Shown in pieces: positions 32,253 to 52,420 of a DNA stretch of 64,000 bases; position 1 is the stretch's first letter; each line of letters opens with the position of its first letter. The stretch comes from Cytophaga hutchinsonii ATCC 33406 (GTDB lineage Bacteria > Bacteroidota > Bacteroidia > Cytophagales > Cytophagaceae). The stretch spans positions 2,186,001-2,250,000 of the forward strand of contig NC_008255.1 of NCBI RefSeq assembly GCF_000014145.1, read 5' to 3'. The position numbers and the translations under genes are program-made. The notes under the pieces were generated by a model. That model made no database searches. It was not told the DNA's origin and saw nothing but the letters and a program-made list of their open reading frames with translations.

Positions 32253-33476
32253 TTATCCTTCTGCTTTTACCGGCAGCGTAAATGTAAAGTCACTGCCTTT
32301 ACCTTCGATACTGTTAACGCCAATAGTACCGCCAAGCTTGTCAACAAACTCTTTACATAGGACCAGCCCAAAACCCGAACCTTTTTCATTTGCAGTACCT
32401 GGAGATGAAATGTTGGAAGAGATTCCAAAAATTTTCTTACGTGTCTGTTCATTAATTCCGATACCGTTATCTGAAACAGTAATTTCAATCTGATTCTGAT
32501 TTGATTTTACCGATACACAGACCCGCCCACCTTTCCTGGTAAACTTAATAGCATTCGAAATAAGGTTTCGTAAAATTGTTTTTAGCATTTTTTCATCCGA
32601 ACAGATCTCTATCTCTGCAGATGCAGTATGTTCCAACGAAATATTTTTTGTTTGTGCACTGGTTTGTGAGAGATCCACAATCTCTTGAATAATTGCAGAC
32701 ACACATATTTTTTCTGACTTATATTCAATCTGTCCGGTTTGAGATTTCGCCCAGTTTAATAAATTATCAAGCAACACTAATGTATGCTGAGCAGTAGAAT
32801 GTATCATGCCTACGTACTGCTGAGAGCTTTCAACATCAGGTACTTTTACTGCATCCAGTAATAAACCTGCCAATGAAACAATATTATTAAACGGCCCCCG
32901 GAGATCATGGGCTATAATTGAAAACAACTTATCCTTTGTTGCATTAAGTTCTCTATACCTTTTTTCACTTTCCCGTAACGCCTGCTCTGCCCTTTTACGT
33001 TTTGTAATATCCCGGATTACACCGACAAGAAATCTTTTGCCACTCGTATCAATAAAGCGTGATTTCCGTGTAGAAATTGTTAATGTTTCTCCATCACGCA
33101 CAGTCAGCGTTTCTTCATTGATATTTTCCAGCCCATCAAATAATACCTCCTTATCTATTTTCAAAAAACTTTCGCGTTCGTTTGCGGGCACATCTTCAGC
33201 AAGTGTCTTCCCAATGATCTCTTCTCTTGGCAGATTAAACATCTGGCAAAAAGCATCATTCACAAAAAGCAACCGGCTTTGCTCATCCTTTACAAATACT
33301 GAATCTCCCATATTGTTCAATATAGTAGGTGCATATGCACTACCGGCAACTAAAAATTCAATGGCATTGATTTGTTCTTTAAGATTAACCGCAGGCAGCA
33401 GCCGGAGGAGCTCATTCTGATGCCTGAGCTCAGTTATCTGATGTTCTAATTCTTCACGAGTGGGTTTATGATTCAT
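32253..33476 (-). CDS. PAS-domain sensor histidine kinase
   Basis: 407 residues. A short coiled-coil start (REELEHQITELRHQNELL) is followed by one PAS domain (about 50-165) and a histidine-kinase core. The phospho-accepting His190 is in SIIAHDLRGPFNN. The ATPase domain has the N box LRNLISNAIKF, G1 VSDNGIGIN and G2 GSGFGLVL. There is no membrane segment, so it likely senses an intracellular signal. It ends at the bidirectional terminator and diverges from the receiver gene at 33795. Confidence 0.88.
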   Translation of the reverse strand: MNHKPTREELEHQITELRHQNELLRLLPAVNLKEQINAIEFLVAGSAYAPTILNNMGDSVFVKDEQSRLLFVNDAFCQMFNLPREEIIGKTLAEDVPANERESFLKIDKEVLFDGLENINEETLTVRDGETLTISTRKSRFIDTSGKRFLVGVIRDITKRKRAEQALRESEKRYRELNATKDKLFSIIAHDLRGPFNNIVSLAGLLLDAVKVPDVESSQQYVGMIHSTAQHTLVLLDNLLNWAKSQTGQIEYKSEKICVSAIIQEIVDLSQTSAQTKNISLEHTASAEIEICSDEKMLKTILRNLISNAIKFTRKGGRVCVSVKSNQNQIEITVSDNGIGINEQTRKKIFGISSNISSPGTANEKGSGFGLVLCKEFVDKLGGTIGVNSIEGKGSDFTFTLPVKAEG

Positions 33477-33794
33477 TTTTCATATTACAAGTATAATTCA
33501 TATCCATTAAAAATCAGCTAGTTTCCTAAATATCCTTCGATTTAATTTAAAAAACAATAGCTCCTGTTAAAACCTCCGTACTTCTTTTATACTGCTGTAT
33601 ACAGCATAGAGTTCAAACCATACAACATTATAAAGATTATTATTCTTGAATAAATGCAAAAGGTAATCTATTGATTAACACAAGTAAATTCATAGGTGTT
33701 TAAACATCAAGAAAGTTTGTATCATAACAGCTCATTTCCGTTTCAATACCTACAGGTATACACGTTTATTCATAAATTATGGTATCTTTGAGTT
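33477..33794. other. Intergenic region between divergent signalling genes
   Basis: About 318 bases, AT-rich, with no open frame of note. It must hold the promoters of both the PAS kinase and the receiver gene. TATCTTTG at 33783-33790, ending 4 bases before the ATG at 33795, is the only clear element. Confidence 0.5.
33783..33790 (+). promoter_or_regulatory. -7 promoter box (TATCTTTG) for the receiver gene
   Basis: Full match to TAnnTTTG four bases before the ATG at 33795. If used, the transcript would be leaderless or nearly so. Confidence 0.5.
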
Positions 33795-34241
33795 ATGTGT
33801 CTATCCAAAAACATTTATCTCGCTGACGACGATGAAGACGATCGTTTATTTTTTCGGGATGCCTTATCAGAAGTATGTAAAGAAATGCGGTTAACGATTG
33901 CTAAAGATGGTGTCGAGCTTATGGATATCCTGTATCTTCCGCCCTCTCCGCTTCCTGATGTTATTTTTTTAGATCTGAATATGCCCGTAAAAAACGGCTT
34001 TGAATGCCTGGAAGAAATAAAAAAAAGCGAATTGTTAAAACACTTGCCGATTATTATTTTTTCTACAACTGTGCAGGAAGAAGCTGTAAACAAGGTATAT
34101 AAAGAAGGAGCCAATTTTTATATCTGTAAACCGGATAATTTTAATCATTTAAAGAAAGCCTTAAAAAAAGTACTTTCAATTGATTGGCTAAAAGAAGTAA
34201 AACAGATTTCCAAAGAACAATTCATTGTTTCTGTAGCTTAA
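33795..34241 (+). CDS. Single-domain response regulator (Rcp1-like receiver)
   Basis: 148 residues, a receiver domain only, with no output domain. Acidic pocket Asp11-13, phosphorylation site Asp60 in VIFLDLNMP, Ser90/Thr91 in FSTT, and Lys112 in YICKPDN. It probably relays phosphate from the adjacent kinase, as Rcp1-type receivers do. It lies 39 bases upstream of the CZB-PAS kinase gene on the same strand. Confidence 0.9.
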   Translation: MCLSKNIYLADDDEDDRLFFRDALSEVCKEMRLTIAKDGVELMDILYLPPSPLPDVIFLDLNMPVKNGFECLEEIKKSELLKHLPIIIFSTTVQEEAVNKVYKEGANFYICKPDNFNHLKKALKKVLSIDWLKEVKQISKEQFIVSVA

Positions 34242-34280
34242 TATCTATAGCTTTATATAAAGCTTACTCTTCTTATTGTC

Positions 34281-37076
34281 ATGTATAACTTACAACTTGA
34301 CTTTGAACAAGCCAGGACACGGCATCTATTATTTAAAACAAAGCTAAGGTCTGTTTTATATGGATCCGAAATTGACACAAAGTCTGTTATCTCCTATGCT
34401 GACTGTGCAGTAAGTAAATGGATCTATGAGCATGCCTTAAAAGCTTACGGACATATACCTGAGATGCATCAGCTGAAACTTGTGCATATAAACCTTCATG
34501 AATCTGCGCAAGAGCTTGTACGTCTTTATAAAGATGGTAAAATTGATAAAGCACGCAGAGGCTTGTCAAACCTGGAATTGATCGCAGATCATTTTGCTGC
34601 TTTGCTCACAGTTGTTGAATTAAAATTACAACTCAGCAATTATCCGGCTGCTGCTATCCGCGACAACGAAGCTGTATTAAACAATACACATAAAGAACTT
34701 TTAGAACTTCACACCAGCCTGCATGAGCTGGATGCCCGCATCCGTAAACAAACAGATGAACTGGTCAGTACACAACGCGGCGTTGAGAACAAACTACGCA
34801 ACCATTTCAGTCACGCTCCTGTAGCAATCTGTATCCTGCGGGGGGCTGAGTTTGTATTAGAACTTGCTAATGATATGTATTTGCAGCACATAGATAAAAC
34901 AGCGGATATTGTTGGTAAACGTTTATTTGAAGAATTACCTGAACTGGAAAAACAGGGAGTGCGTGAAATGCTGAATAGTGTGCTGGATACGGGAAATCCC
35001 TTTGTAGGCACAGATGTAGAAATACGTATGAAACGCAATGGCATCAATGAAACATTGTATTTTAATTTTGTATATAAACCGCTGGACGATCATGAAACCA
35101 TACCTGGTATTATGATTGTATGCTCTGAAGTTACGGATCAGGTAATTGCTAAAAAGGCAATGATTGAAAATCAGCAACGCCTGAATATTGCTATTGAAGC
35201 TACAGCTTTAGGCACATATGAAGTAAATCTGAAGACAGCCGAGCTTGTCTATTCAGACAGATACCTGGAAATTTTTGGATACGCACCACACGAAAAACCT
35301 GGTCATAAAGAATTAGTTAAATGTATACATGAGGATGATGTACACATACGTGAGCAGGCCTTTGCAATAGCATTTGAAACTTCTAAGCTGTTTTATGAAG
35401 TACGTATCATACTCAGAGACCAGTCTGTCCGATGGTTAAGGGCTTTCGGGAAAGTTTTTTTTGATGATAAGGGAACTCCTGAAAAAATGCTTGGAACTGT
35501 AATGGACATTACGAAAGAAAAAGCAGCAGAAGAAAAAATACGCAAGGCTAATGAAGTGCTTGAAATTGCACTGCAATCTGCCAAACTAGGAACATATGAA
35601 TTAAACATCAAAAGCGGGAAAGCAAATTTCAGTTTACTTTGTAAAGAAATTTTTGGTTTTGAGCCGGATAAAGATGTTACCCTGGAAGATGTGCGTAGTT
35701 CAACGCATCCTGACGATAAAGAAATCACCCGCTCCTACATGTTAGAAGCACTTGCCAATAAACAGAATTACGATGCTGAATATCGCATTATAACAGCCGA
35801 CAAGTCTATACGCTGGATCTCTATTTCAGGAAAAGGCGTCTATGATGCAGAAGGCAATGTCAAAAAACTGATTGGAGTAATCGAAAATATTACCGACCGC
35901 AAACATGCGGAAGATGAATTAAATATAAGCGTGCAGAAATTCAGATTACTTGCTGACTCCATGCCGCAATTTGTATGGACCGGTGATACAGCGGGTAATC
36001 TGAATTACTTTAACCAATCTGTTTTTGATTATACGGGGCTCACACCCGCGCAGATATATTTAGAGGGCTGGCTCCAGATCGTTCATCCCGATGACCGTGA
36101 AGAGAATATCGAAAAATGGATGCAGGCTATACAAACCGGTAACGATTTTATATTCGAACACCGCTTTAAAAAAAATACAGGTGAATACCGCTGGCAATTA
36201 AGCCGTGCTATTGCACAACGCAATAAAACCGGTGAAATACAGATGTGGGTCGGAACCAGCACAGATATACAGGATCAAAAAACATCGGCACAGAAATTAG
36301 AAGAGTTGATCAAGGAACGTACAAAAGAGTTAAAGAATGCAAATATTGAACTGGAAAGTATGAATCAGGAACTACGCTCCTTTACATACATTTCAAGCCA
36401 TGATTTGCAGGAACCTTTACGAAAGATTCAAACATTCATCAGCAGAATCCAGAATAGCGATAGTGGAACGCTATCGAAAGAAGGCGCAAATTATTTTGCC
36501 CGCATTCAGCAATCAGCAAATAAAATGAAAACACTGATCAACGATCTGTTAACATACTCAAGAACCAGCGCAACTGAAAAAGTATTTGAAAAGACCAATC
36601 TTAATCTGTTGCTGCATGAAATTAAAACGGAATTTACAGAAGTATTGAAAGAGAAAAACGGCTCCCTGGAAATTTCAAACCTTCCCGAAATTAATGCAAT
36701 TCCATTTCAGTTAAGACAATTATTTATAAACTTAATTTCAAACGCCATTAAATTTTCCAGGCCATCTGTCCCTCCGGTTATAAAAATCAGTTCTGCTATA
36801 CTGCTGGGCAGGGACACAGATAATGCCAATGCGCACGAAAATGAATTGTATCATCAGATCATAGTAAGCGATAACGGTATCGGTTTTGACCCTTCCTATA
36901 AGGATAAAATTTTCGAGGTATTTCAACGCCTGCATCCCAAAACCGAATACGAAGGTACAGGTATCGGGCTTTCTATTTGCACTAAAATTGCCCAAAACCA
37001 CAATGGCTTTATCAGCGCTTCGGGAGAATTAAATAAAGGTGCTGCGTTTACAATCTACTTACCGTTATTGAAGTAA
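34281..37076 (+). CDS. CZB-PAS multidomain sensor histidine kinase
   Basis: 931 residues, no membrane segment. Residues 10-85 fit a CZB (chemoreceptor zinc-binding) domain, with His15, Cys42 (in DCAVSKW), His69 and His73 as candidate zinc ligands in the expected order. Four PAS-type regions follow (about 170-290, 300-420, 425-545 and 550-665), then a coiled coil and a kinase core with His707 in ISSHDLQEPLRK, an N box (FINLISNAIKF), and G1/G2 loops (DNGIGFD, GTGIGLSI). PAS domains two and three are similar to each other. It pairs with the adjacent lone receiver. Possible zinc or redox sensing is inferred. Confidence 0.85.
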   Translation: MYNLQLDFEQARTRHLLFKTKLRSVLYGSEIDTKSVISYADCAVSKWIYEHALKAYGHIPEMHQLKLVHINLHESAQELVRLYKDGKIDKARRGLSNLELIADHFAALLTVVELKLQLSNYPAAAIRDNEAVLNNTHKELLELHTSLHELDARIRKQTDELVSTQRGVENKLRNHFSHAPVAICILRGAEFVLELANDMYLQHIDKTADIVGKRLFEELPELEKQGVREMLNSVLDTGNPFVGTDVEIRMKRNGINETLYFNFVYKPLDDHETIPGIMIVCSEVTDQVIAKKAMIENQQRLNIAIEATALGTYEVNLKTAELVYSDRYLEIFGYAPHEKPGHKELVKCIHEDDVHIREQAFAIAFETSKLFYEVRIILRDQSVRWLRAFGKVFFDDKGTPEKMLGTVMDITKEKAAEEKIRKANEVLEIALQSAKLGTYELNIKSGKANFSLLCKEIFGFEPDKDVTLEDVRSSTHPDDKEITRSYMLEALANKQNYDAEYRIITADKSIRWISISGKGVYDAEGNVKKLIGVIENITDRKHAEDELNISVQKFRLLADSMPQFVWTGDTAGNLNYFNQSVFDYTGLTPAQIYLEGWLQIVHPDDREENIEKWMQAIQTGNDFIFEHRFKKNTGEYRWQLSRAIAQRNKTGEIQMWVGTSTDIQDQKTSAQKLEELIKERTKELKNANIELESMNQELRSFTYISSHDLQEPLRKIQTFISRIQNSDSGTLSKEGANYFARIQQSANKMKTLINDLLTYSRTSATEKVFEKTNLNLLLHEIKTEFTEVLKEKNGSLEISNLPEINAIPFQLRQLFINLISNAIKFSRPSVPPVIKISSAILLGRDTDNANAHENELYHQIIVSDNGIGFDPSYKDKIFEVFQRLHPKTEYEGTGIGLSICTKIAQNHNGFISASGELNKGAAFTIYLPLLK

Positions 37077-40580: not shown

Positions 40581-41395
40581 TAATACTATATTTAGATGTA
40601 ATACCTTCAAATATACGTAAATAATGTTTTTATTTCCCAATTGGAAATTTATTGATGCCATTTACCAGATAGAGTTTCTCATGAGCATTATACGTCAAGC
40701 GTTTATTTTACATAAAGAATTATGCGTTTACTTTTTATAGCTTCGTTCGTTTATTCTGAATCCGCAGATTGAAAACGTATAAATTATTAAAATTGTTGAT
40801 AGTTTATATCTAAAAATTCAATTAAATAGATAAATAACTGTTACCAATTGGGTGCAAACTGTATATAATATATTAGATGGTCTATTTATTTTTATTGCTG
40901 TTTTATTTTATACTGCATACGCATATGTTGATAGAACTTTTTATTGAAAGCACGTTAGAAAAATCATATACACATAAATGTAGTGTCTTTAGTAAGAATA
41001 ATTCAAGATTCTATTTTAAAAAAGCCAGTTCTTTTAAAAATACAGGTAATAAATTGAGAAGATACTCTTATACTTGTTATAAAGCTCCATAAAACTGCCT
41101 ATAAACAGATAACTAACATACAATCCGGCAATTATAAAATTTTTAATGATTTTATAAGGAATAAAATTGAATAGTTACACGTACATTACGGTATAGGATT
41201 ATTTCACCGAGTAATGTAGCTTTGTTTTCTATCTTTGGCTCAGATTGGCAAGAAGTTATGCAGGCATTGAATTATTTCTGGATACAACAACCAACGCGGG
41301 TTAATAATACTATTGTTGGTGATACCGGCGGATAAACCCTTTACTAAGCCATTAAATCATTCAATAAAATATTGTCAAATATTACATATAACAAA
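40581..41395. other. 815-base intergenic region between the SprF-like and adhesin genes
   Basis: No convincing gene. A 71-codon frame (40877-41092) is hydrophobic then basic and looks spurious. TATCTTTG at 41230-41237 and TAGCTTTG at 41217-41224 fit the -7 box and would give a 5' leader of about 150 bases for the adhesin gene. Confidence 0.5.
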
Positions 41396-44300
41396 ATGAA
41401 AAAAATCCTCTGCTTATTTATCCTCTCATTTATTTTTATTGTTTATGTAAATACAGAAATACAAGCGCAGTGTCCGGCTGTTCCAACCTGTACCAAAACA
41501 GCGGTTGCAGGTACGAGCTATACACTTACAGCATCCGATGTGCTTTGTATCAGTTCAAATTACAATTCAGGAAACATTACCATTAATGGCGGTACTGTTA
41601 TTGTTCAATCCGGAGGTACGCTTGGTATAAGCCCTTCCATTACTACGGGAACTATAAACATAGCTACCGGAGGTACGTTGACAAGTGATATCTCAGCAAG
41701 TTCTTCTGCTACCCTTAATAATTGCGGTAAGATATCAGGCACACGTTCCATCAATCCAAACATTGCCCTTAATAACTACGGAAATAACGATGGCGCTTTG
41801 TTAAGTTTAAAACAGGATAATGGATTTACGCTTAATAACTATGGTAAAAATTTATCTGTAAGCATTGATGGAAACCCGAACGGTAACTTTACAATTAACA
41901 ATGCAGTTGGTGCAACAATAACATCACTTGCTACTACCCACCCTACTTCCGGATTAAAAGCAGGTAGTGTGATAACAAATCTAGGTGCAATTAATCTTAC
42001 TTCTGATATTTTGTGGGAAGGTACTATTAACAATGGTAATGCAAGTGGTTCGCAACAAGGGACAATAACAACTGCAACAGGTGTTCAGGTTGAATTCAGA
42101 GGCCCCTGGACAATAAATAATAATCCAAGTTCAACGATACAAATAGACAAAATCTATTTAAATAACCTGTCCAGTCCGGGGCAAGGTGCATTACTAAGCG
42201 ATCAAAGTGTGTTGTCCGTGAATACAATCGTTGGTAACAATATTGTAAATCCTATTAAAGGAATCGGGGGATGTTCTTATTTCAAAAGTTACAATGTATT
42301 CAGTAGCACATCCAATCAAAATTTATTTTTGCAGGTTCCTCCGGGTTCAATCAGTTATTGCGGTCCTGTCCCTGTTAACAGTGCTGCTCAAACATTCGGA
42401 ATTGTCAGTGTGGTTTCAAACGGAGCTACTCCGGCATTATATAGAGTTACGGTTAATTCATCAAACAATTCAGGAAGCATCAACGGTACATTAATATCTA
42501 TCCGGTTTGTTACAGGAAATCAATCGAATGGTTACTGGAAGGCAAAGTTAATTTCAACAACTTCAGGAACGGCTACTTATGATTTATTAAGCCCTGATGG
42601 AGGCACCTACACATTTGACAATGCAGCTACTGCAGGAACGGGTACGTTTTACTGGACGGCATCTACATTTGGTAATGCCTATTATGCCGGTTATGATTGT
42701 AATAACCCTGCATTAACAACTAAGATTGTTACAGCCGGTCCATCACAGTCTGCCTGTGCCAATAATCCTACTGTAACCTTAGCGGGTAATTTCAGTGTAG
42801 CTCCCGGTATCGTATGGTCTGGCGGTGCAGGAACTTTTGTTCCAAACAACACTACAAAAAATGCAACCTATACGCCTACTGCAGCAGAAATAGCTGCCGG
42901 CTCTGTTACCTTAACCATAACAACTACAGGAACCACTCCCTGTAACCAGCAATCAGATAAAGTTACCATCTCATATACAACTGCACCAACCGTTAATGCA
43001 GGTCCTCCGGTAGCAGGCTGTGTTAACAATGCTTCAATAACGTTATCAGGTACAGCTGCCAATCAAACAGGTGTAACCTGGTCTGGCGGAACGGGTACCT
43101 TTTCTCCGGCCAGTTCACTAAATACAACATATACTCCTTCGGCTGCTGAAAAAACAGGAAATCCTAAAACAATCACCTTAACGTTAACGGCAAATAAAAC
43201 CGGCTGTAATGCTGTTACCTCAAATGTTGATGTAACTATTAACCCAAGTCCGGTTGTTAATGCGGGACGTGATACCGTAATCTGTAAAAATGATTCATTT
43301 AATCTACAGGGTATTGTTTTGAATGCCACTGGCGGCACATGGTCTGGCGGTACAGGTACATTTACTCCGAATGCCAATTCATTAACGGCTAATTATAAAC
43401 CAAGTGCCTCTGAATTAACTGGTACAAGTGTTACATTAACATTAACATCAACCGGTAATGGCGCATGTCTGGCGGTAGCAGATCAAATGATCATTAAATT
43501 TACTCCTGCACCAACCATTAAAATAACCGGTCCTTCCGATGTTTGTGAAAATAATCCGGTAATAACGTTATCCTCTGCAATAACCGATGCTACCGGACAA
43601 AGCTGGCTGGGCAGCGGTGGATCTTTTACGCCGAATACCACAACCAGCCCGATCGTTTATACACCTTCTGCCGCAGAAATATCTTTTGGATTCACGGGTA
43701 TTATAGCCAAAACAACAGGCGGCAAATGTCCTCCGGTAACGGATACAATTATCGTTACATTCGGACCTGCTCCTAAAGTAGACGCCGGTCCTCCGGTTTC
43801 TATTTGTGAAAACAACCCTACCGGAAGCCTTACAGGTTCTGTAACAGGTGTATCAACCGTTACCTGGACTTCACCAACCGGCGGTTTATTTACTTCACCT
43901 ACAAATCCGGTTACAAATTACATCGCGACAAGCACAGATATTACAAATGGCAGTGTTATTTTAACTGTTACTGCAACCAAGCCAACATGTAATCCGGTTA
44001 CAGATCAGGTAGTGGTTACAATAACTCCTAAGCCTACTGTAAGTGCCGGTCCGGCAAGAACAGTCTGTGCAAACAATGCAACAGCAACATTTAACGGTTC
44101 TTTCACAGGTGCAACCGGAGTTGTATGGACAACATCCGGTGATGGTACGTTTGGCTCAGCTACTTCCGCAACTACAACCTATACAGCCGGACCAAATGAC
44201 ATTACTGCCGGAACGGTTACCTTATCCCTTACAACTACCGGTAATGGAAATTGTTTGGCTGTTGTTTCTACATCCACACTTTCAATTACACCAAGACCTA

Positions 44301-47300
44301 CTGTAACTCCAGGCACGTATTCTGTGTGTGCGAACAATGCAACCGTTCAGCTTAATGGTGCTGTTACTATTGCTACAGGCGGAACCTGGGTTGGAGGTGC
44401 AGGTACTTTTTCTCCCGGAAGAAATGTCTTAAACCCAACCTATACACCAACTGCTGCTGAAACAGCTGCAGGCTCGTTAAGTCTTACGTTACAATCTACC
44501 GGTAATGGAAATTGTAATGCTGTTACAGGAAGTGCAGCAATAACATTCACTCCTGCTCCAACAATTACGCCAACTACGCCTGCCAATGTTTGTGCGGATG
44601 TTCCTGCAGCAACTATTACGACAACAAAAACAGTAGCTACAGGTGTACTATGGTCTGGCGGAGCCGGTACAATTGCAGTACCAACAAATTTATCTACTAC
44701 CTATACACCTACTACAACTGAAATCAATGCCGGTTCTGTAACATTAACGGTTACAACAACAGGAAATGGATTATGTTCGCCGGTATCAGCTAATGTGCTT
44801 GTTAAAATAGCTCCTGCTCCAACGGTAAATGCCGGACCAAACCAGGTTGTCTGCGGAACAGTTTCCACCGTATCAAATCTTTCCGGAACTGTTACCGGTG
44901 CTACCGGCGGAACATGGACAAAAGTATCCGGTACAGGTACTTTTGGAAATGCAAACAATACATCTACCACATACACACCTTCAAATCAGGATGTGCTTAA
45001 TGGTTCAGTAACATTAAAACTAACAACTACTGGAAATGGTTTATGCCAGGCGGTATCAAACACCATGACAATTACCTATACGCCTGTACCATCAATCAAC
45101 GCAGGTGTTGATCAAATTGTCTGTTCAACTGAATTGCCGGTAAAACTTTCTGCTTCAGGTTCTCCTGCCAATTGGAATCCAAGTGCAGGTACATATGCAA
45201 ATGCTGCTTCTTTAATTACAACCTATTCACCATCTGCAGGTGAAATTGCAGCCGGAACAGTAACCTTATCCATCAGCACAATAGCCAGCGGAGCATGCCC
45301 TGTTAAAACATCTCAACTTACCATAACAATTCCTCCGGGACCTGTTGTAAATACAGGTCCTGCATCACAAACCATGTGCGGAAGTTTGTCAGGTTATCAA
45401 TTAAATGGCTCCGTTACAAATGCAACAGGAGGTTTCTGGTCAACAAGCGGAACAGGAGCATTTACACCAAATGCAAACGCACTGAACGCTATCTATACGC
45501 CTTCTGCACTTGACAGAACAAATGGTTCTGTAGTATTGACACTTACTTCAACAGGTAATGGTTCATGCCAGCAAGTCTCCAAAACAGTTACATTAACAAT
45601 TACGCCTGCAATAATTGTAAGTGCAGGACCGAATCAAACACTTTGTGCGGATGTTAGCGGAATCACCTTAAATGGTTCTTTAACAACAGCTACAGGCGGT
45701 ATCTGGTCTATCACTTCAGGAAGCGGATCAATTGCATCTCCGACAAGTTTGATCACGACATATAATCCAAGTGCTGCAGACATAGCTGCGGGAACAGTTT
45801 CGTTTTTATTAACATCTACCGGAAATGGCGGCTGCCCGGCTGTTACAAGCACTGTTACACATACATTAACTCCTGCTCCTACCTTAACCCAGGGTCCGGA
45901 TCAATCTATTTGCGGTGACAGTGCCTATGTACAATTAAATGCAACCTTTACCGTTGCCACGGGTATTAAATGGACAAGCAATGGAACGGGAACATTTTCA
46001 CCAAATAACGTAACCGCTAATGCGCGTTATACTCCATCTGCTGCAGACGTTTCAAACGGAACCGTAACTTTAACGGCAACAACAACGGGCAACGGCACAT
46101 GTAATCCTGTTGTAAAAAATCTTACCATAACAATTACACCTGTTGTGTTATTGACAATTCCTTCCACCCAATCTGTTTGTCAAAACAACGCTACGGTTAC
46201 ATTAACAGCATCTACTAGTGCAACCGCTGTAAGCTGGACAACATCAGGCACAGGTACTTTTGCCAGCCCGACATCACCATCAACTACCTACGCACCTTCT
46301 GCTGCAGATATTGCAGCAGGTGTTGTAACATTAACAAATAAAACAACAGGTATTACCAACTGTAAAACACAAACAGGTATTGTACAGGTAATTATTGCAC
46401 CTTCTCCAGTTGTTGATGCGGGCATGCCTCAAACTGTTTGCTCTACAACGCCAAGCATTTCATTAAATGGCAGCGTTCTGCATGCAGGCGGCGGTACCTG
46501 GACATCTAACGGGACAGGTACATTTGCAAATGCAAACGCACCTGTTACTACATATGCGCCATCAAAAGCAGATACTACAGCAGGTTCTGTAATATTCACA
46601 TTAACGTCTACAGGCAACGGCACATGTACGCCAGTATCTAAAAATGTTACCGTTACCTTCAAAAAAGTTGCTATCGTAAATGCGGGCCCGAATCAGACAA
46701 TCTGCGGCGACAGTGCTTATGTACAGCTTGCAGGCAGTATTGTTAATGCCGGCGGCGGTGTATGGACAAAATCCGGTACAGGTACGTTCATGCCAAGTAC
46801 AATAGATTTAAATGCAGTCTATTCCCCAACTCCTGCAGATAAAGCAAGCGGCTCTGTAACTATTACCTTAACGTCTACATCAAATGGAGAATGCCCGGCT
46901 GTTTCAAAAAGCATGGTAATTACAATAACTCCCGCACCTGTTATCACTGTAAGTGCAGATAAAACAGTTTGTGCAAATAATGCAGTTACTAACGTAAGCG
47001 GTACATTTACCGTATCGTCAACAATTAAATGGACAACATCCGGTAGCGGTACATTTACTCCCGACAATACATCTTCTTCTGTTACCTATACCCCTTCTGC
47101 TATTGACAAAGCGGCAGGATCAGTTGTGCTTGCCATGTCAACTACAGCAAATGGAACCTGTAAACCGGCACAAGGATATTTAACCTTAACCATTACGCCT
47201 ACACCCGTGTTAAATGCTGGTTTTGATAAAACAATTTGCGGTGATAGTACAGAGATTAAATTAGATCAGGCGACTGTAACAAGCGCTACAGGTGTTCAAT

Positions 47301-50300
47301 GGTCTACAAATGGTTCAGGTGTATTCGGACCAAATAATACCGTAACACAACCAATATACTATCCTACCGCTGCAGATAAGCTGGCCGGCAAAGTCAAACT
47401 TGCTGCTGTAACAACCGGAAACGGTTCATGTCTGCCTGTTCGTGATACAATAGAAATAACAATAACACCTATACCAACGGTAAATGCAGGTTCAGATATT
47501 TCAATCTGTGCCGATACAAATAATGTAAAATTAGCCGGATCTTCTACAATAGCAGGTGGTGTGAAATGGACATCTACCGGAACCGGTACGTTTACACCAA
47601 GTGCATTTGTAGCAAATGCCAGTTATATTCCATCAAATGACCAAACAGTTACATTAACGTTAACAACTACAAATAACGGAACGTGTAAGCCGGTAAGCGA
47701 TGACCTTTTGGTTTTAGTTGCACCAAAACCTGTTGTAGATGCCGGCACGGACAAAACAGTTTGTGCAAATGTAACTCAGGTACTTTTAACCGGAACTGTA
47801 ACAAATGCAACCGGAGGTCTTTGGACAACAAACGGCAGTGGTTCATTTTTACCAAGCAGTTCAACCCTAACGCCAAACTACGTTCCTTCAGCTTCTGATT
47901 TATCTCTTGGAACAGTAACATTAACATTAGCTTCAACCGGAAACGGATTATGTAAAACAGTTAGCGACAATGTAACAGTAACATTTAATCCTGTGGCAAC
48001 TGTTTCGGCAGGAAATGATTTACAAGCCTGTATTTCTTCAACAACTGTAAATGTGAATGGTTCGTCAACAAATGTTTCATCTGTTAACTGGCAAATTGTA
48101 TCGGGTAATGGATCATTATCTACCACATCAAGCCTTGCTACAACATATAATGTATCGCCTGCAGATATTACAGCGGGCAGCGTTACACTTAGAATTACAG
48201 GCACAGCATTAAGCAGCTGTTCAAATGTTTCGGATGATGTTGTAATAACGTTTGTGACTTCTCCTCCTATTAATGCAGGCCCTGACAAAACAGTCTGCAG
48301 TACCGATTTCCCAATCGCATTAGAAGGTTCCGGATCATCTGCACAATGGTCTGGCGGTACGGGAACATTCAGCCCGAATAACCAGACATTAAATGCACTA
48401 TATACACCAAGTGCGGCAGAAGTTGCAGCACATACGGTAACATTAACGTTACAGGCAATAACAAGCGGTTCTTGCCCTGCTCCATCGGACCAGGTAACAT
48501 TTACAATATTAGATGGACCGCAGGTAGATGTAGATGCAGGAACCGTATCAAAAATCTGTGCCAATACACCTTCTGTAAATTTATCGGGCAGTACAACAGG
48601 TGTTAATTCTACAGGTGTTACCTGGACCACATCCGGCTCAGGAACCTTTGCAAATGTTAATACACTCAATCCTGTTTATACGCCATCCTTATCAGATAAA
48701 AATGGCGGAGAAGTTGTCATTACAATTTCATCAACGGGTAACAATGCTGCATGTAAACCTGCAACAGATACCATGCATTTAATTATTACACCGGCTCCTC
48801 AAATAAGTACAGGAGGAAATCAAACAATATGTGGAGATGCTGCTACAGTTGATATCAGTTCATCGTTCTCAAATGCAACCGGTGTCGTATGGTCAAATGT
48901 TTCAGCCAATGGATCCTATGCAAGTTCAACTTCTGCCAACACGAAATATCTTGTGGCAACTCCTGCTGATACTACTGCAGGTTCAATAACCATACAGGTT
49001 ACAACAACAGGTCAGCTTCCAAGTTGTCCGGCTGCTACCGACCAGATGACCATAACCTTTACAAAAAAACCTGCTGTTTCAGCCGGTTCTCCAATCACTG
49101 TATGTACAGATACCACTTCAATTCCGTTAAATGGCAGTGTGTCTATTGCCACAGGAGGTGTATGGTCATCAGCATCCGGCGGCAGTTTTATTCCGAATGC
49201 ACATCAATTAAATGCTAAATACATACCTTCTGCTGCAGACAAAGCGAGCGGAACTGTAAATTTAGTATTAACCTCTACAGGCAATGGAAGTTGTAATGCC
49301 TATTCCGGAAATGTTGCGATAACCTTAAATCCGCAGCCAACCATTTCCGGTTCTGTTCCAAACGATTCTATCTGTACGGGCAATACGGTTTCAGCTACAG
49401 CCAATGTTACTAACACAAGTTCATTGATCTGGAAAACTACCGGAACAGGTACATTCAGTACAACAACAGGTACAAGTACAATATATACACCATCTACAAG
49501 TGATGAGTTAAATGGCGGTGTTATTATATATGCATCAACAGTTGGTTCGAATCCTTGTAAAGAAATTGAAAAGTATTTTTCTATTACCATATTGAAATCT
49601 CCGGGAGCATTGGTGAATGCCGGATTTGATCAGATTGCATGTGCGGATGCCGGTTTTTTCCCATTAAACGGTATCATTGACGGATTGAGCGGTACAGGTA
49701 TCTGGACGAGCTCTACCGGAAAAGGTGATTTTTACCCGGATGCAACAGATCTAAATCCGATCTTCGTTCCGGCACAGGAAGATATTGATGCGGGAGGATT
49801 AACCATTACACTTTCGACAACAAACAACAGCATCTGCCCCCCATATTCAGATGATATGATATTGACAATCAATCCGGCACCTGAGGTATCCGCAAGTGCT
49901 TCTGCAGGTGGCTTCCCACCACTGTGTGCCGACACTGCTTACATACAATTAAACCCTACGATCACAAATTCCACCGGCGGTGAATGGTCAACAACAGGAA
50001 CAGGTATTTTCTCTCCAAGCATTACAGCATTAAATGCTGTATATGTCCCTTCCGCTGAAGACAGACAAAAAGGCTTAATTGGACTTACCTTAACAACAAC
50101 AGGCAATGGTACATGTAATGCGTACTTTGATTTTATGACAATCCACCTAACTCCGAAACCAACCATTAATGCTGGCCCGGATAAAATTGTCTGTGCAGAT
50201 CAGGTGCTTGATTTAAATGCTACTACCACAGTCGCTTCAGGGGTTGACTGGACATCATCAGGTACAGGTTTTTTCACTTCCGCTGCAAACTCATTAAATA

Positions 50301-52420
50301 CGCAGTATATCATGTCAGACATAGATACGACCAACAGAATATTTAATGTGTTTGCAAAAACGGTTAATCAGGGGTTATGTAAACCTGTTTATGATACGGT
50401 TAGAATAACCGTACAACCTGTACCGGTAGTACTTGCTTCAGCAGACCAGATAATTTGTGCGGATGCAACCAGCATTCAGGTACGCGCTGGTATCAGGAAC
50501 GCTACCGGTGTTGTATGGACAACGGATGGATTTGGCTCGTTTACACCAAATGCTTCCGGAAATCCGGTAACGTATAATCTGGCTCAGGCAGATGCAGCAA
50601 AAGGTACAATTGAATTGTATGCAACATCAGGCAATTCAGGAATCTGCAGTTCAGGAACAGATACAATTAAAGTAACCATATCGCCCACTCCAACCATTTC
50701 TGCGGGTGCACCTATTATATGTAAAACAGCACTTGGCGCTAAATTAAATGGTGTTGTAAACAGCGGAACAACAACCGGAACAACAACCTGGTCAAGCAGC
50801 GGCTCGGGTATATTTGCGGTAAATCAGTCTGTGCTGGATGCTTCGTATTATCCAACGGCAGCTGATATTGCAGCCGGCCAAGTTACACTTACACTTACTG
50901 CCTCAAATTACGGTACTTGTAACGCTGTAGCCAGTAATGCAATATTATATATAGAACCAATGCCTGTTGCAGATGCAGGCCAGGATCAATACTCTTGTGT
51001 CGGTGGTTCGGTTACGGTTTCAGCAAACAATACGCAAACAGGTGTCACGTATTCATGGACAGATAATGCGAGTGTGATTGTACAACCTGCCAATGCAAAA
51101 TCACATACCTTTGTTGTTTCAGCTACAACACAACGTATCTTGTTAGCAGAAGATGCAAAAGGCTGTGTAGCCAGTGATACGGTAAATATTACAACCTTTG
51201 AGCTGCCTCAATTTACACTGCCGGCAATAGCTTGTTACAGTGAAAATTTAATGGTACAGTCCAACCCTTCTCCACAACCAACTGTACCTGGCATTTATCA
51301 ATGGTTTGACGGCGGTACCATAATGACCGGCGAAAACAAATCGTTCTTAATTGTTCCGGACACAGGTACATATAAAATCGAATTCTCATTTGCTAATTGT
51401 GCGGCAGATGATCAGGTAGTTGTTAAGCCGGCACCAACTATTACAGCAGCAGATATTATAGCGTGTGGAAACGGAACATTAACGGCCAGTACTACTACTC
51501 CGGGTGCTACAATTGCCTGGAGCTTAAATGGAACAGCTGTAGGTTCCGGATCTCCGATAACAATTACATCTTCTGCTAACGATACCATAAAATATGATAT
51601 TCGCGTAACCAACCCGGCTACTACTTGTTTCAATACAGATAGTGTATATGTAATTGGCTTACCTATTCCGCAAATGGTTGAACTGGATTCTACTTCGTGT
51701 ATTGGTTTGACTGTTGAGTTAACGGCTATACCAACCAATATTCCTAATCTGGATCAATTCCTGGATATTAAATACGACTGGAGAAAAAATAGTGGCGCTA
51801 TATTCTCTCAGTCTCCAACAGTAATCGTTAATTCAGCGGGTACATTTAAAGGAGCGATGACTATAGGACAATGTAAAGATACTTCTACCAACAATATTTC
51901 ATTCTCCGAATATCCTACGTCTACCTTGCCGGATAGCTATACGTATTGTCCGGAGACGGATAAAAAAGTTGTGCTGAATCCAGGTACACTACCTAATACA
52001 ACCTATACCTGGAACAATGGATTTATCGGTAATATGAATACGGTTTCTCCTAAAGATGATTCAACATATGTTGTTACCGTCACCAATCAATTTTTCTGTT
52101 CGATCACAGATCAGACAATTGTGTATACCATCTGTGCTCCTGTTATAGATGTACCTACTGCATTTACACCTGACATTACAGGCAGTGGTGATCAGACATT
52201 CAGAGGTTTTGGTAAATATGAGACGAATTATAAAATGATGGTATTTAACCGTTGGGGTGAAGTAATCTTTATTTCAAATGATAAGTTAGTTGGCTGGGAC
52301 GGTACGTATCTTGGAGCACCAGCACAATCGGGTGTATATCCTTGGATCGTTACATATGAAGGCCGTGCCCAATATAAAGGTCCGTACAAAAAAACAGGCC
52401 AGGTAACCTTGATCAGATAG
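41396..52420 (+). CDS. Giant secreted adhesin with Ig-like repeats and gliding-motility C-terminal domain
   Basis: 3,674 residues from the ATG at 41396; a TTG eight codons earlier (41372) is less likely. A signal peptide (ILCLFILSFIFIVYVNTEIQAQ) is followed by a beta-helix-like region rich in Asn and Thr repeats (about 30-440). Then come about 31 tandem modules of about 88 residues (443-3188), each with a Gly-Trp-Ser-Gly-like motif, a YTPSAAD/E-type strand and two conserved cysteines. After further divergent modules, the C-terminus (about residues 3580-3674, from VPTAFTP to QVTLIR) is the CHU_C/TIGR04131-type sorting domain used by type IX secretion. It is probably a surface adhesin for gliding or substrate binding. 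The divergent SprF-like gene is its likely partner. Confidence 0.9.
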   Translation: MKKILCLFILSFIFIVYVNTEIQAQCPAVPTCTKTAVAGTSYTLTASDVLCISSNYNSGNITINGGTVIVQSGGTLGISPSITTGTINIATGGTLTSDISASSSATLNNCGKISGTRSINPNIALNNYGNNDGALLSLKQDNGFTLNNYGKNLSVSIDGNPNGNFTINNAVGATITSLATTHPTSGLKAGSVITNLGAINLTSDILWEGTINNGNASGSQQGTITTATGVQVEFRGPWTINNNPSSTIQIDKIYLNNLSSPGQGALLSDQSVLSVNTIVGNNIVNPIKGIGGCSYFKSYNVFSSTSNQNLFLQVPPGSISYCGPVPVNSAAQTFGIVSVVSNGATPALYRVTVNSSNNSGSINGTLISIRFVTGNQSNGYWKAKLISTTSGTATYDLLSPDGGTYTFDNAATAGTGTFYWTASTFGNAYYAGYDCNNPALTTKIVTAGPSQSACANNPTVTLAGNFSVAPGIVWSGGAGTFVPNNTTKNATYTPTAAEIAAGSVTLTITTTGTTPCNQQSDKVTISYTTAPTVNAGPPVAGCVNNASITLSGTAANQTGVTWSGGTGTFSPASSLNTTYTPSAAEKTGNPKTITLTLTANKTGCNAVTSNVDVTINPSPVVNAGRDTVICKNDSFNLQGIVLNATGGTWSGGTGTFTPNANSLTANYKPSASELTGTSVTLTLTSTGNGACLAVADQMIIKFTPAPTIKITGPSDVCENNPVITLSSAITDATGQSWLGSGGSFTPNTTTSPIVYTPSAAEISFGFTGIIAKTTGGKCPPVTDTIIVTFGPAPKVDAGPPVSICENNPTGSLTGSVTGVSTVTWTSPTGGLFTSPTNPVTNYIATSTDITNGSVILTVTATKPTCNPVTDQVVVTITPKPTVSAGPARTVCANNATATFNGSFTGATGVVWTTSGDGTFGSATSATTTYTAGPNDITAGTVTLSLTTTGNGNCLAVVSTSTLSITPRPTVTPGTYSVCANNATVQLNGAVTIATGGTWVGGAGTFSPGRNVLNPTYTPTAAETAAGSLSLTLQSTGNGNCNAVTGSAAITFTPAPTITPTTPANVCADVPAATITTTKTVATGVLWSGGAGTIAVPTNLSTTYTPTTTEINAGSVTLTVTTTGNGLCSPVSANVLVKIAPAPTVNAGPNQVVCGTVSTVSNLSGTVTGATGGTWTKVSGTGTFGNANNTSTTYTPSNQDVLNGSVTLKLTTTGNGLCQAVSNTMTITYTPVPSINAGVDQIVCSTELPVKLSASGSPANWNPSAGTYANAASLITTYSPSAGEIAAGTVTLSISTIASGACPVKTSQLTITIPPGPVVNTGPASQTMCGSLSGYQLNGSVTNATGGFWSTSGTGAFTPNANALNAIYTPSALDRTNGSVVLTLTSTGNGSCQQVSKTVTLTITPAIIVSAGPNQTLCADVSGITLNGSLTTATGGIWSITSGSGSIASPTSLITTYNPSAADIAAGTVSFLLTSTGNGGCPAVTSTVTHTLTPAPTLTQGPDQSICGDSAYVQLNATFTVATGIKWTSNGTGTFSPNNVTANARYTPSAADVSNGTVTLTATTTGNGTCNPVVKNLTITITPVVLLTIPSTQSVCQNNATVTLTASTSATAVSWTTSGTGTFASPTSPSTTYAPSAADIAAGVVTLTNKTTGITNCKTQTGIVQVIIAPSPVVDAGMPQTVCSTTPSISLNGSVLHAGGGTWTSNGTGTFANANAPVTTYAPSKADTTAGSVIFTLTSTGNGTCTPVSKNVTVTFKKVAIVNAGPNQTICGDSAYVQLAGSIVNAGGGVWTKSGTGTFMPSTIDLNAVYSPTPADKASGSVTITLTSTSNGECPAVSKSMVITITPAPVITVSADKTVCANNAVTNVSGTFTVSSTIKWTTSGSGTFTPDNTSSSVTYTPSAIDKAAGSVVLAMSTTANGTCKPAQGYLTLTITPTPVLNAGFDKTICGDSTEIKLDQATVTSATGVQWSTNGSGVFGPNNTVTQPIYYPTAADKLAGKVKLAAVTTGNGSCLPVRDTIEITITPIPTVNAGSDISICADTNNVKLAGSSTIAGGVKWTSTGTGTFTPSAFVANASYIPSNDQTVTLTLTTTNNGTCKPVSDDLLVLVAPKPVVDAGTDKTVCANVTQVLLTGTVTNATGGLWTTNGSGSFLPSSSTLTPNYVPSASDLSLGTVTLTLASTGNGLCKTVSDNVTVTFNPVATVSAGNDLQACISSTTVNVNGSSTNVSSVNWQIVSGNGSLSTTSSLATTYNVSPADITAGSVTLRITGTALSSCSNVSDDVVITFVTSPPINAGPDKTVCSTDFPIALEGSGSSAQWSGGTGTFSPNNQTLNALYTPSAAEVAAHTVTLTLQAITSGSCPAPSDQVTFTILDGPQVDVDAGTVSKICANTPSVNLSGSTTGVNSTGVTWTTSGSGTFANVNTLNPVYTPSLSDKNGGEVVITISSTGNNAACKPATDTMHLIITPAPQISTGGNQTICGDAATVDISSSFSNATGVVWSNVSANGSYASSTSANTKYLVATPADTTAGSITIQVTTTGQLPSCPAATDQMTITFTKKPAVSAGSPITVCTDTTSIPLNGSVSIATGGVWSSASGGSFIPNAHQLNAKYIPSAADKASGTVNLVLTSTGNGSCNAYSGNVAITLNPQPTISGSVPNDSICTGNTVSATANVTNTSSLIWKTTGTGTFSTTTGTSTIYTPSTSDELNGGVIIYASTVGSNPCKEIEKYFSITILKSPGALVNAGFDQIACADAGFFPLNGIIDGLSGTGIWTSSTGKGDFYPDATDLNPIFVPAQEDIDAGGLTITLSTTNNSICPPYSDDMILTINPAPEVSASASAGGFPPLCADTAYIQLNPTITNSTGGEWSTTGTGIFSPSITALNAVYVPSAEDRQKGLIGLTLTTTGNGTCNAYFDFMTIHLTPKPTINAGPDKIVCADQVLDLNATTTVASGVDWTSSGTGFFTSAANSLNTQYIMSDIDTTNRIFNVFAKTVNQGLCKPVYDTVRITVQPVPVVLASADQIICADATSIQVRAGIRNATGVVWTTDGFGSFTPNASGNPVTYNLAQADAAKGTIELYATSGNSGICSSGTDTIKVTISPTPTISAGAPIICKTALGAKLNGVVNSGTTTGTTTWSSSGSGIFAVNQSVLDASYYPTAADIAAGQVTLTLTASNYGTCNAVASNAILYIEPMPVADAGQDQYSCVGGSVTVSANNTQTGVTYSWTDNASVIVQPANAKSHTFVVSATTQRILLAEDAKGCVASDTVNITTFELPQFTLPAIACYSENLMVQSNPSPQPTVPGIYQWFDGGTIMTGENKSFLIVPDTGTYKIEFSFANCAADDQVVVKPAPTITAADIIACGNGTLTASTTTPGATIAWSLNGTAVGSGSPITITSSANDTIKYDIRVTNPATTCFNTDSVYVIGLPIPQMVELDSTSCIGLTVELTAIPTNIPNLDQFLDIKYDWRKNSGAIFSQSPTVIVNSAGTFKGAMTIGQCKDTSTNNISFSEYPTSTLPDSYTYCPETDKKVVLNPGTLPNTTYTWNNGFIGNMNTVSPKDDSTYVVTVTNQFFCSITDQTIVYTICAPVIDVPTAFTPDITGSGDQTFRGFGKYETNYKMMVFNRWGEVIFISNDKLVGWDGTYLGAPAQSGVYPWIVTYEGRAQYKGPYKKTGQVTLIR
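42722..50959 (+). repeat. About 31 tandem protein-coding repeats in the adhesin gene
   Basis: Units of about 266 bases (88 codons) run back to back. Each starts with a pattern like APTVNAGPNQTVC, contains WSGGTGTF and YTPSAADIAAG, and ends near TTGNGxC. Identity between units is moderate, highest in the WSGG..TF and YTPSA blocks. The count is by eye and may be off by one or two. Confidence 0.85.

Follow-up and report, generated by a model that had tools for sequence, protein, structure and literature searches.

A soluble CZB-PAS histidine kinase paired with a lone receiver in Cytophaga hutchinsonii, and a CZB lineage found on several kinases

In the window studied here, which is the whole stretch of 64,000 nucleotides at G000:C1:2186001-2250000 of the Cytophaga hutchinsonii genome (searched as a single contig of 4,433,218 bases), a single-domain receiver gene is followed by the gene of a soluble histidine kinase that begins with a CZB domain. 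The observation, made in an original prediction from the letters of the DNA, is real, correctly described and conserved, and its surprise is modest. What is new here is a set of 18 CZB-histidine kinases, 15 of them in the same order, and the chief addition is that one CZB lineage has been mobile among kinases. Because the CZBs form one clade and the kinase cores do not, a single CZB lineage appears, judging from the sequences, to have passed between kinases of five lineages or more. The features are as follows, in the coordinates of the window.

33795..34241, plus strand: single-domain receiver (REC), 148 aa (PF00072, 65.2 bits; residue positions; nearest solved structures)
34281..37076, plus strand: CZB-PAS4-HisKA-HATPase_c histidine kinase, 931 aa (open frame and Pfam scans)
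34302..34634, plus strand: CZB four-helix-bundle region, residues 8-118, with predicted ligands His15, Cys42, His69 and His73 (Pfam, AF2, 3t9o alignment, invariance)
34647..34787, plus strand: long helix from the CZB to the first PAS, residues 123-169 (AF2, mean pLDDT 81.8)
34806..35141, plus strand: PAS 1 (PAS_4), residues ~176-287 (33.7 bits)
35178..35516, plus strand: PAS 2, residues ~300-412 (PAS_3 stretch; limits read off the strands in a model of low confidence)
35640..35882, plus strand: PAS 3 (PAS_3), residues 454-534 (Pfam)
35937..36269, plus strand: PAS 4, residues 553-663 (Pfam)
36375..36566, plus strand: HisKA, residues 699-762, with the phospho-acceptor His707 in HDLQEP (40.6 bits; motif position)
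36708..37067, plus strand: HATPase_c, residues 810-929, with NLISNA at 817, DNGIGF at 864 and GTGIGL at 892 (72.2 bits; motifs)

Both genes are on the plus strand within the span given in the original prediction (33795-37076), which is right; the receiver occupies 33795-34241 and the kinase 34281-37076, with the receiver upstream and 39 bases between its stop and the kinase start. A second Cytophaga species (G002) keeps the pair with matching neighbour genes, at 88.5% identity for the receiver and 71.3% for the kinase. A divergent PAS-HisKA kinase of 407 aa (window 32253-33476, minus strand) adjoins the pair. Its membership of the system is unsupported, as it has no counterpart at the G002 locus and its core lies far off in the tree. 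The sequence TATCTTTG was found at window 33782-33789 and at the matching place in locus L058, 4-5 bases 5' of the receiver ATG, and it has the same position in both genomes of the genus Cytophaga. It resembles what we take to be the Bacteroidota -7 element, TAnnTTTG. As a -7 element it would give the receiver a very short or absent leader, a reading that is only suggestive because the window contains 34 copies of the pattern on one strand and 36 on the other. Elsewhere in the window an open frame is of unusual length, at 3682 aa (41372-52420, plus strand), and a plasmid search returned just two weak records.

The solubility claimed for the kinase was borne out by hydropathy; no membrane helix is evident in the protein, since its highest 19-residue Kyte-Doolittle mean is 1.35. 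It is a HisKA-type kinase with the phospho-acceptor His and the N, G1 and G2 boxes of HATPase_c, and its core is nearest to PDB 8f71 (1e-39), followed by bacteriophytochromes at about the same level as T. maritima HK853 (about 1e-21). The four predicted PAS domains correspond to three PAS_3 stretches and one PAS_4 match at residues ~176-287, and the helix that leads into them is likely a signalling helix.

The CZB domain predicted at the N-terminus was checked with the Pfam model PF13682, whose match spans residues 15-80 and covers all 64 model positions. A scan of the whole protein gave 27.1 bits, which is under the Pfam cut-off of 29.4 and counts against the assignment, but N-terminal fragments scanned alone reached 31.3 bits (first 100 residues) and 33.2 bits (first 170), and the genome search, in which nothing else matched CZB, gave 31.6 bits. 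The predicted zinc ligands His15, Cys42, His69 and His73 stand at the positions first named for them, and the three His and one Cys are present in 19/19 CZBs of this type, namely 18 kinase-fused domains and the one of L012 (a kinase-free CZB-PAS protein, 326 aa long). Of the 101 columns of this set no more than nine are invariant (H15, L22, L26, C42, W47, H69, H73, L79 and R92), and because all four ligands are among them the match is more than chance. Position 45, which is Ser in the window CZB and mostly Gly in the related rows shown, counts against it. A chance match or a wrong domain at the N-terminus was ruled out by the fragment scans together with the invariance of the ligands.

An AF2 model of residues 1-170, made from seven sequences (pLDDT 81.8, pTM 0.69), is a helix bundle that runs into a long helix, with helices at 8-26, 43-56, 60-84, 88-118 and 123-169; the full-length kinase model was poor (pLDDT 54.8). 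In VIA-align the DgcZ CZB (3t9o_B) was aligned over 112 residues at 2.8 A with a Z of 10.9, which is below the value of about 13 that the program advises for such folds, and it ranked 28 among generic helix bundles. Foldseek with the same model gave generic bundles, with 3t9o absent among the best 50 rows, and nothing in the PDB reached E 0.001; a search of PDB sequences with a profile built on these CZBs did not bring up any CZB chain. The modelled fold would be compatible with CZB and is not proof of it. These comparisons, in which many generic helix bundles fit the model no worse than 3t9o does, and the sub-threshold score of the whole protein are what one would expect if the N-terminus were an unrelated bundle that merely resembles CZB. 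We consider this very improbable, because the N-terminal scans exceed the cut-off with the full length of the model covered, the four ligands are in place and invariant, and the N-terminus sits among bona fide CZBs in the tree. Taken together, the domain scans, the ligand conservation and the conserved gene pairing support the identification of the N-terminus as CZB, the solubility of the kinase and its partnership with the receiver.

The lone receiver expected beside the kinase was also found as such, with PF00072 as its sole match above the cut-off in 148 aa. It has the acidic pair Asp11/Asp12, Asp60, Thr91 and Lys112 and no output domain, as befits a single-domain receiver; the roles of these residues, with Asp60 as the phospho-acceptor, are presumably those of their CheY counterparts, from which we assigned them. 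The best PDB matches of the receiver are RcpA (3e-16), a DrRR-type receiver and Rcp1 (1e-14). A single-domain receiver is adjacent on the same strand to 29 of the 57 kinases compared, that is, to 12/18 with CZB and 17/39 without (Fisher p = 0.15). Because adjacency is not enriched in the CZB-kinases, the receiver goes with the kinase chassis and not with CZB. A tie between CZB and the receiver was rejected on this count, and the CZB-free kinases of the same clade have the same kind of receiver. The original prediction thus stands as to the CZB domain, the soluble kinase and the receiver partnership, but the receiver follows the chassis, and with 18 CZB-kinases the arrangement is not peculiar to this genome.

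Receiver first and CZB-kinase second is also the arrangement at six loci of f11, a different family of the order. At these loci (L154, L155, L156, L157, L163 and L164) the gene immediately upstream of the pair encodes an outer-membrane beta-barrel protein; the barrel in L154 is OMP_b-brl_3 by Pfam, and those of the other five are homologous to it. The receivers of the window, of G012 and G015 (same family as the window genome) and of the six f11 loci cluster near each other, as their kinases do. In G012 and G015 the receiver is paired with a kinase that has a PAS-like N-terminus, 15% identical to the window CZB and with no CZB match. Two tandem receiver-kinase pairs were observed in L103 (31-6604, minus strand), one kinase with CZB and the other without, and these two kinases are sisters in the kinase tree (99/94), which makes them a natural domain-swap pair. 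The adjacent receiver of the window might be a phosphate sink or a step in a wider relay, with the kinase mainly phosphorylating another regulator. Its lack of an output domain fits such a role, and the similar receivers near many kinases of the clade (29/57) make cross-talk possible, but the pair stays together in the second species, in the same gene context, and in the six f11 loci, and we regard this reading as possible though rather doubtful.

On balance we lean towards a cytosolic two-component pair, in which a zinc CZB would be the input to the kinase and the adjacent receiver its target. The kinase would act as a dimer, and the N-terminal CZB bundle would hold one zinc through His15, Cys42, His69 and His73. 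It was documented for DgcZ and TlpD that three His and a Cys bind zinc and that HOCl oxidises the Cys so that zinc is released (PMC12871147; PMC8262984). Zinc loss from CZB comes with local unfolding, and other zinc-disturbing effectors were considered possible (PMC12871147, PMC8262984, PMC8846402). By analogy, zinc binding and oxidant sensing may be expected at this site, and the pair may form a zinc- or oxidant-responsive phosphorelay. Zinc occupancy would shift through zinc supply or through oxidation of Cys42 and would change the bundle; this change would pass along helix 123-169 and the PAS array to HisKA and alter the phosphorylation of His707, and the phosphate would go to Asp60 of the adjacent receiver. 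As it has no output domain, the receiver would work either through binding to a second protein or as one link in a relay. We infer the zinc binding, the signal, the sign of the response, the phosphotransfer and the output of this scheme; an output in motility or in the envelope is only a guess.

The true signal could be sensed by the four PAS domains that separate CZB from the kinase, in which case CZB would be a structural, dimer-forming cap with zinc for stability. The G012 and G015 kinases of the same clade, in which the receiver pairing persists with a different N-terminus, agree with this. A mere cap is harder to reconcile with ligands that are kept in every related CZB while most other columns vary, and the CZB domains of known function are sensors; we think this explanation unlikely. 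In the two-component reading, receiver and kinase chassis would be a long-standing pair, and CZB an interchangeable input module, drawn from one CZB clade and attached to several kinases.

The two best-known outputs of CZB are the chemoreceptor and the diguanylate cyclase. Both are missing from this genome, because it has no match to MCPsignal or GGDEF at E up to 0.001, while 7/14 and 8/14 control genomes were matched. Pfam CZB matched 44 of 395 genomes of the phylum. Twenty frames, mostly long ones, were scanned among the 58 CZB matches listed, and none has a kinase: 16 have MCPsignal, two CheW, one hemerythrin and one HAMP only (it runs to the contig end). With a profile made from the CZBs that are linked to kinases (A2), 13/395 genomes of the class and 103/390 of the order gave matches. 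Among the matches listed for the order, at least 15 lie in open frames of 650 aa or more, and all 15 proteins have a kinase core (the Pfam check covered part of these cores); most of the other matches listed are short frames, chiefly of family f13. At least 18 CZB-kinases are therefore counted, as 15 from the order, two from Mucilaginibacter (L010, L011) and L103 from another family of the class. Several other architectures were observed. In L010:4962-7466 and L011:5001-7466 (both plus strand), about 130-140 residues after HATPase_c have no Pfam match at E 0.01. CZB is fused to a hemerythrin domain in L025:901-1740 (minus strand), possibly a zinc plus oxygen/iron sensor, and to a SpoIIE-type phosphatase in L068:5461-6585 (plus strand). 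A C-terminal CZB stands behind HD/HD-GYP-like domains, judged by eye, in the Rhodocyclaceae loci L014:3651-5417 and L015:3744-5450 (both plus strand).

The trees of the two parts are incongruent. In the kinase-core tree of 57 rows, the 18 CZB-kinases need seven changes, six of them forced by well-supported branches, and a single kinase clade of all 18 was rejected (p-AU 0.00025); a first tree with seven CZB-kinases had five forced changes, with p-AU 2e-117 for one clade. The CZB tree of 85 rows, built on few columns and with L103 as a long branch, puts the 18 kinase-fused CZBs and L012 in one clade (95/89), nested in a clade with 13 standalone f13 CZBs (98/95) that excludes the CZBs of MCP and CheW proteins; a constraint that unites the 18 was not rejected (p-AU 0.41). 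The identities point the same way. Between the window protein and its G002 orthologue CZB is 60.9% and the kinase core 74.8% identical, whereas with L059 CZB is 52.0% and the core 31.2% identical, and vertical descent is hard to square with a CZB that is less conserved than the core in the first comparison and more conserved in the second. In the 18-row kinase clade of the window protein, nine rows have CZB and nine do not, and gains and losses are indistinguishable there. The compared kinases are those nearest to the window kinase, mostly of its own family, so that the sampling behind the trees is uneven. The CZB label was fixed before the first kinase tree, and the one-clade tests were run after it had been viewed. 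Five long-branch rows (L122_11206, L111_2839, L123_5796, L123_15823 and L107_2) and matches of fewer than 180 residues are absent from the second kinase tree and from the count of adjacent receivers; the second CZB tree leaves out L165 (the same match as L012), L043, L104, L030 and matches of fewer than 75 residues.

Among the 13 nearest standalone f13 CZBs, three have lost all four ligands together (Q, N, M/T/I and M/L in their place), as is expected of one site. These are L062:5542-5985 (minus strand, QNTM), L105:5872-6237 (plus strand, QNMM) and L061:5499-5858 (minus strand, QNIL), all with the Trp kept. Neighbours were counted at 10 of the 13 loci (L061, L166 and L169 lie outside the count). 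A kinase is directly beside the CZB in three of them, which is CHASE3-HAMP-HisKA by Pfam in L060 and L069 and a kinase by the local profile in L172; a PAS-PAS protein is beside it in two (L062 and L105, both with the ligands lost), and five have neither (L167, L168, L170, L171 and L173). Action of these standalone domains in trans on a neighbouring kinase is a lead, not a result. We tentatively suggest, as one possibility, that the CZB lineage of the order serves as a portable zinc/redox input to kinases of at least five lineages, with the standalone f13 form acting in trans on a CHASE3-HAMP kinase.

To our knowledge, CZB has been studied almost only as an input of chemoreceptors and diguanylate cyclases. 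If the suggestion of a portable input is true, two-component signalling would be a third main output of CZB, in bacteria without the MCP and GGDEF outputs, and the lone receiver would perhaps act on surface motility or envelope transport. As the system consists of two soluble proteins with measurable autophosphorylation and transfer, how zinc occupancy becomes an enzymatic signal could be addressed directly. The mismatch of the CZB and kinase trees also offers natural chimaeras, in the form of different kinases that carry one input and of sister kinases that differ in the presence of CZB. No fusion of CZB to a histidine kinase was found in the portions of the literature available (including PMC8262984, PMC12871147, PMC8846402 and PMC10653840), although family databases may list it, and none of the papers listed for two-component signalling in Cytophaga hutchinsonii was seen to deal with this pair. 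The 2021 census of 10,140 CZB sequences distinguished seven classes, none of which, in the part of the report available, is a histidine kinase (PMC8262984).

Compared with known systems, the window kinase shares with E. coli DgcZ (CZB-GGDEF) an N-terminal CZB in a soluble signalling enzyme and the His3Cys site, which is predicted to bind zinc here. It is reported that DgcZ is inhibited by zinc and that HOCl acts through its CZB Cys (PMC8262984). Unlike DgcZ, the window kinase has HisKA/HATPase_c as its output, reached through four PAS domains, and neither the protein nor the genome has GGDEF. The TlpD-like soluble chemoreceptors (MCP-CZB) are similar in having a cytosolic CZB sensor that acts from a distance on histidine phosphorylation, in TlpD through CheA, but in the window protein CZB stands at the N-terminus and shares a chain with a kinase of its own, and MCPsignal is found neither in the protein nor in the genome. 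The CheW-CZB, EAL-CZB, membrane MCP-CZB and CZB-only proteins, which are further classes of the 2021 census, have the CZB domain in common with it. The kinase differs from Cph1 in being without bilin-binding photosensory domains (no GAF or PHY match at E up to 1). The SHDLQEPL motif of the window kinase is, we presume, common to Cph1. As in the Rcp1/RcpA systems and the Cph1-Rcp1 pair, a single-domain receiver stands beside a soluble kinase, and RcpA and Rcp1 are among the solved structures closest to the receiver of the window.
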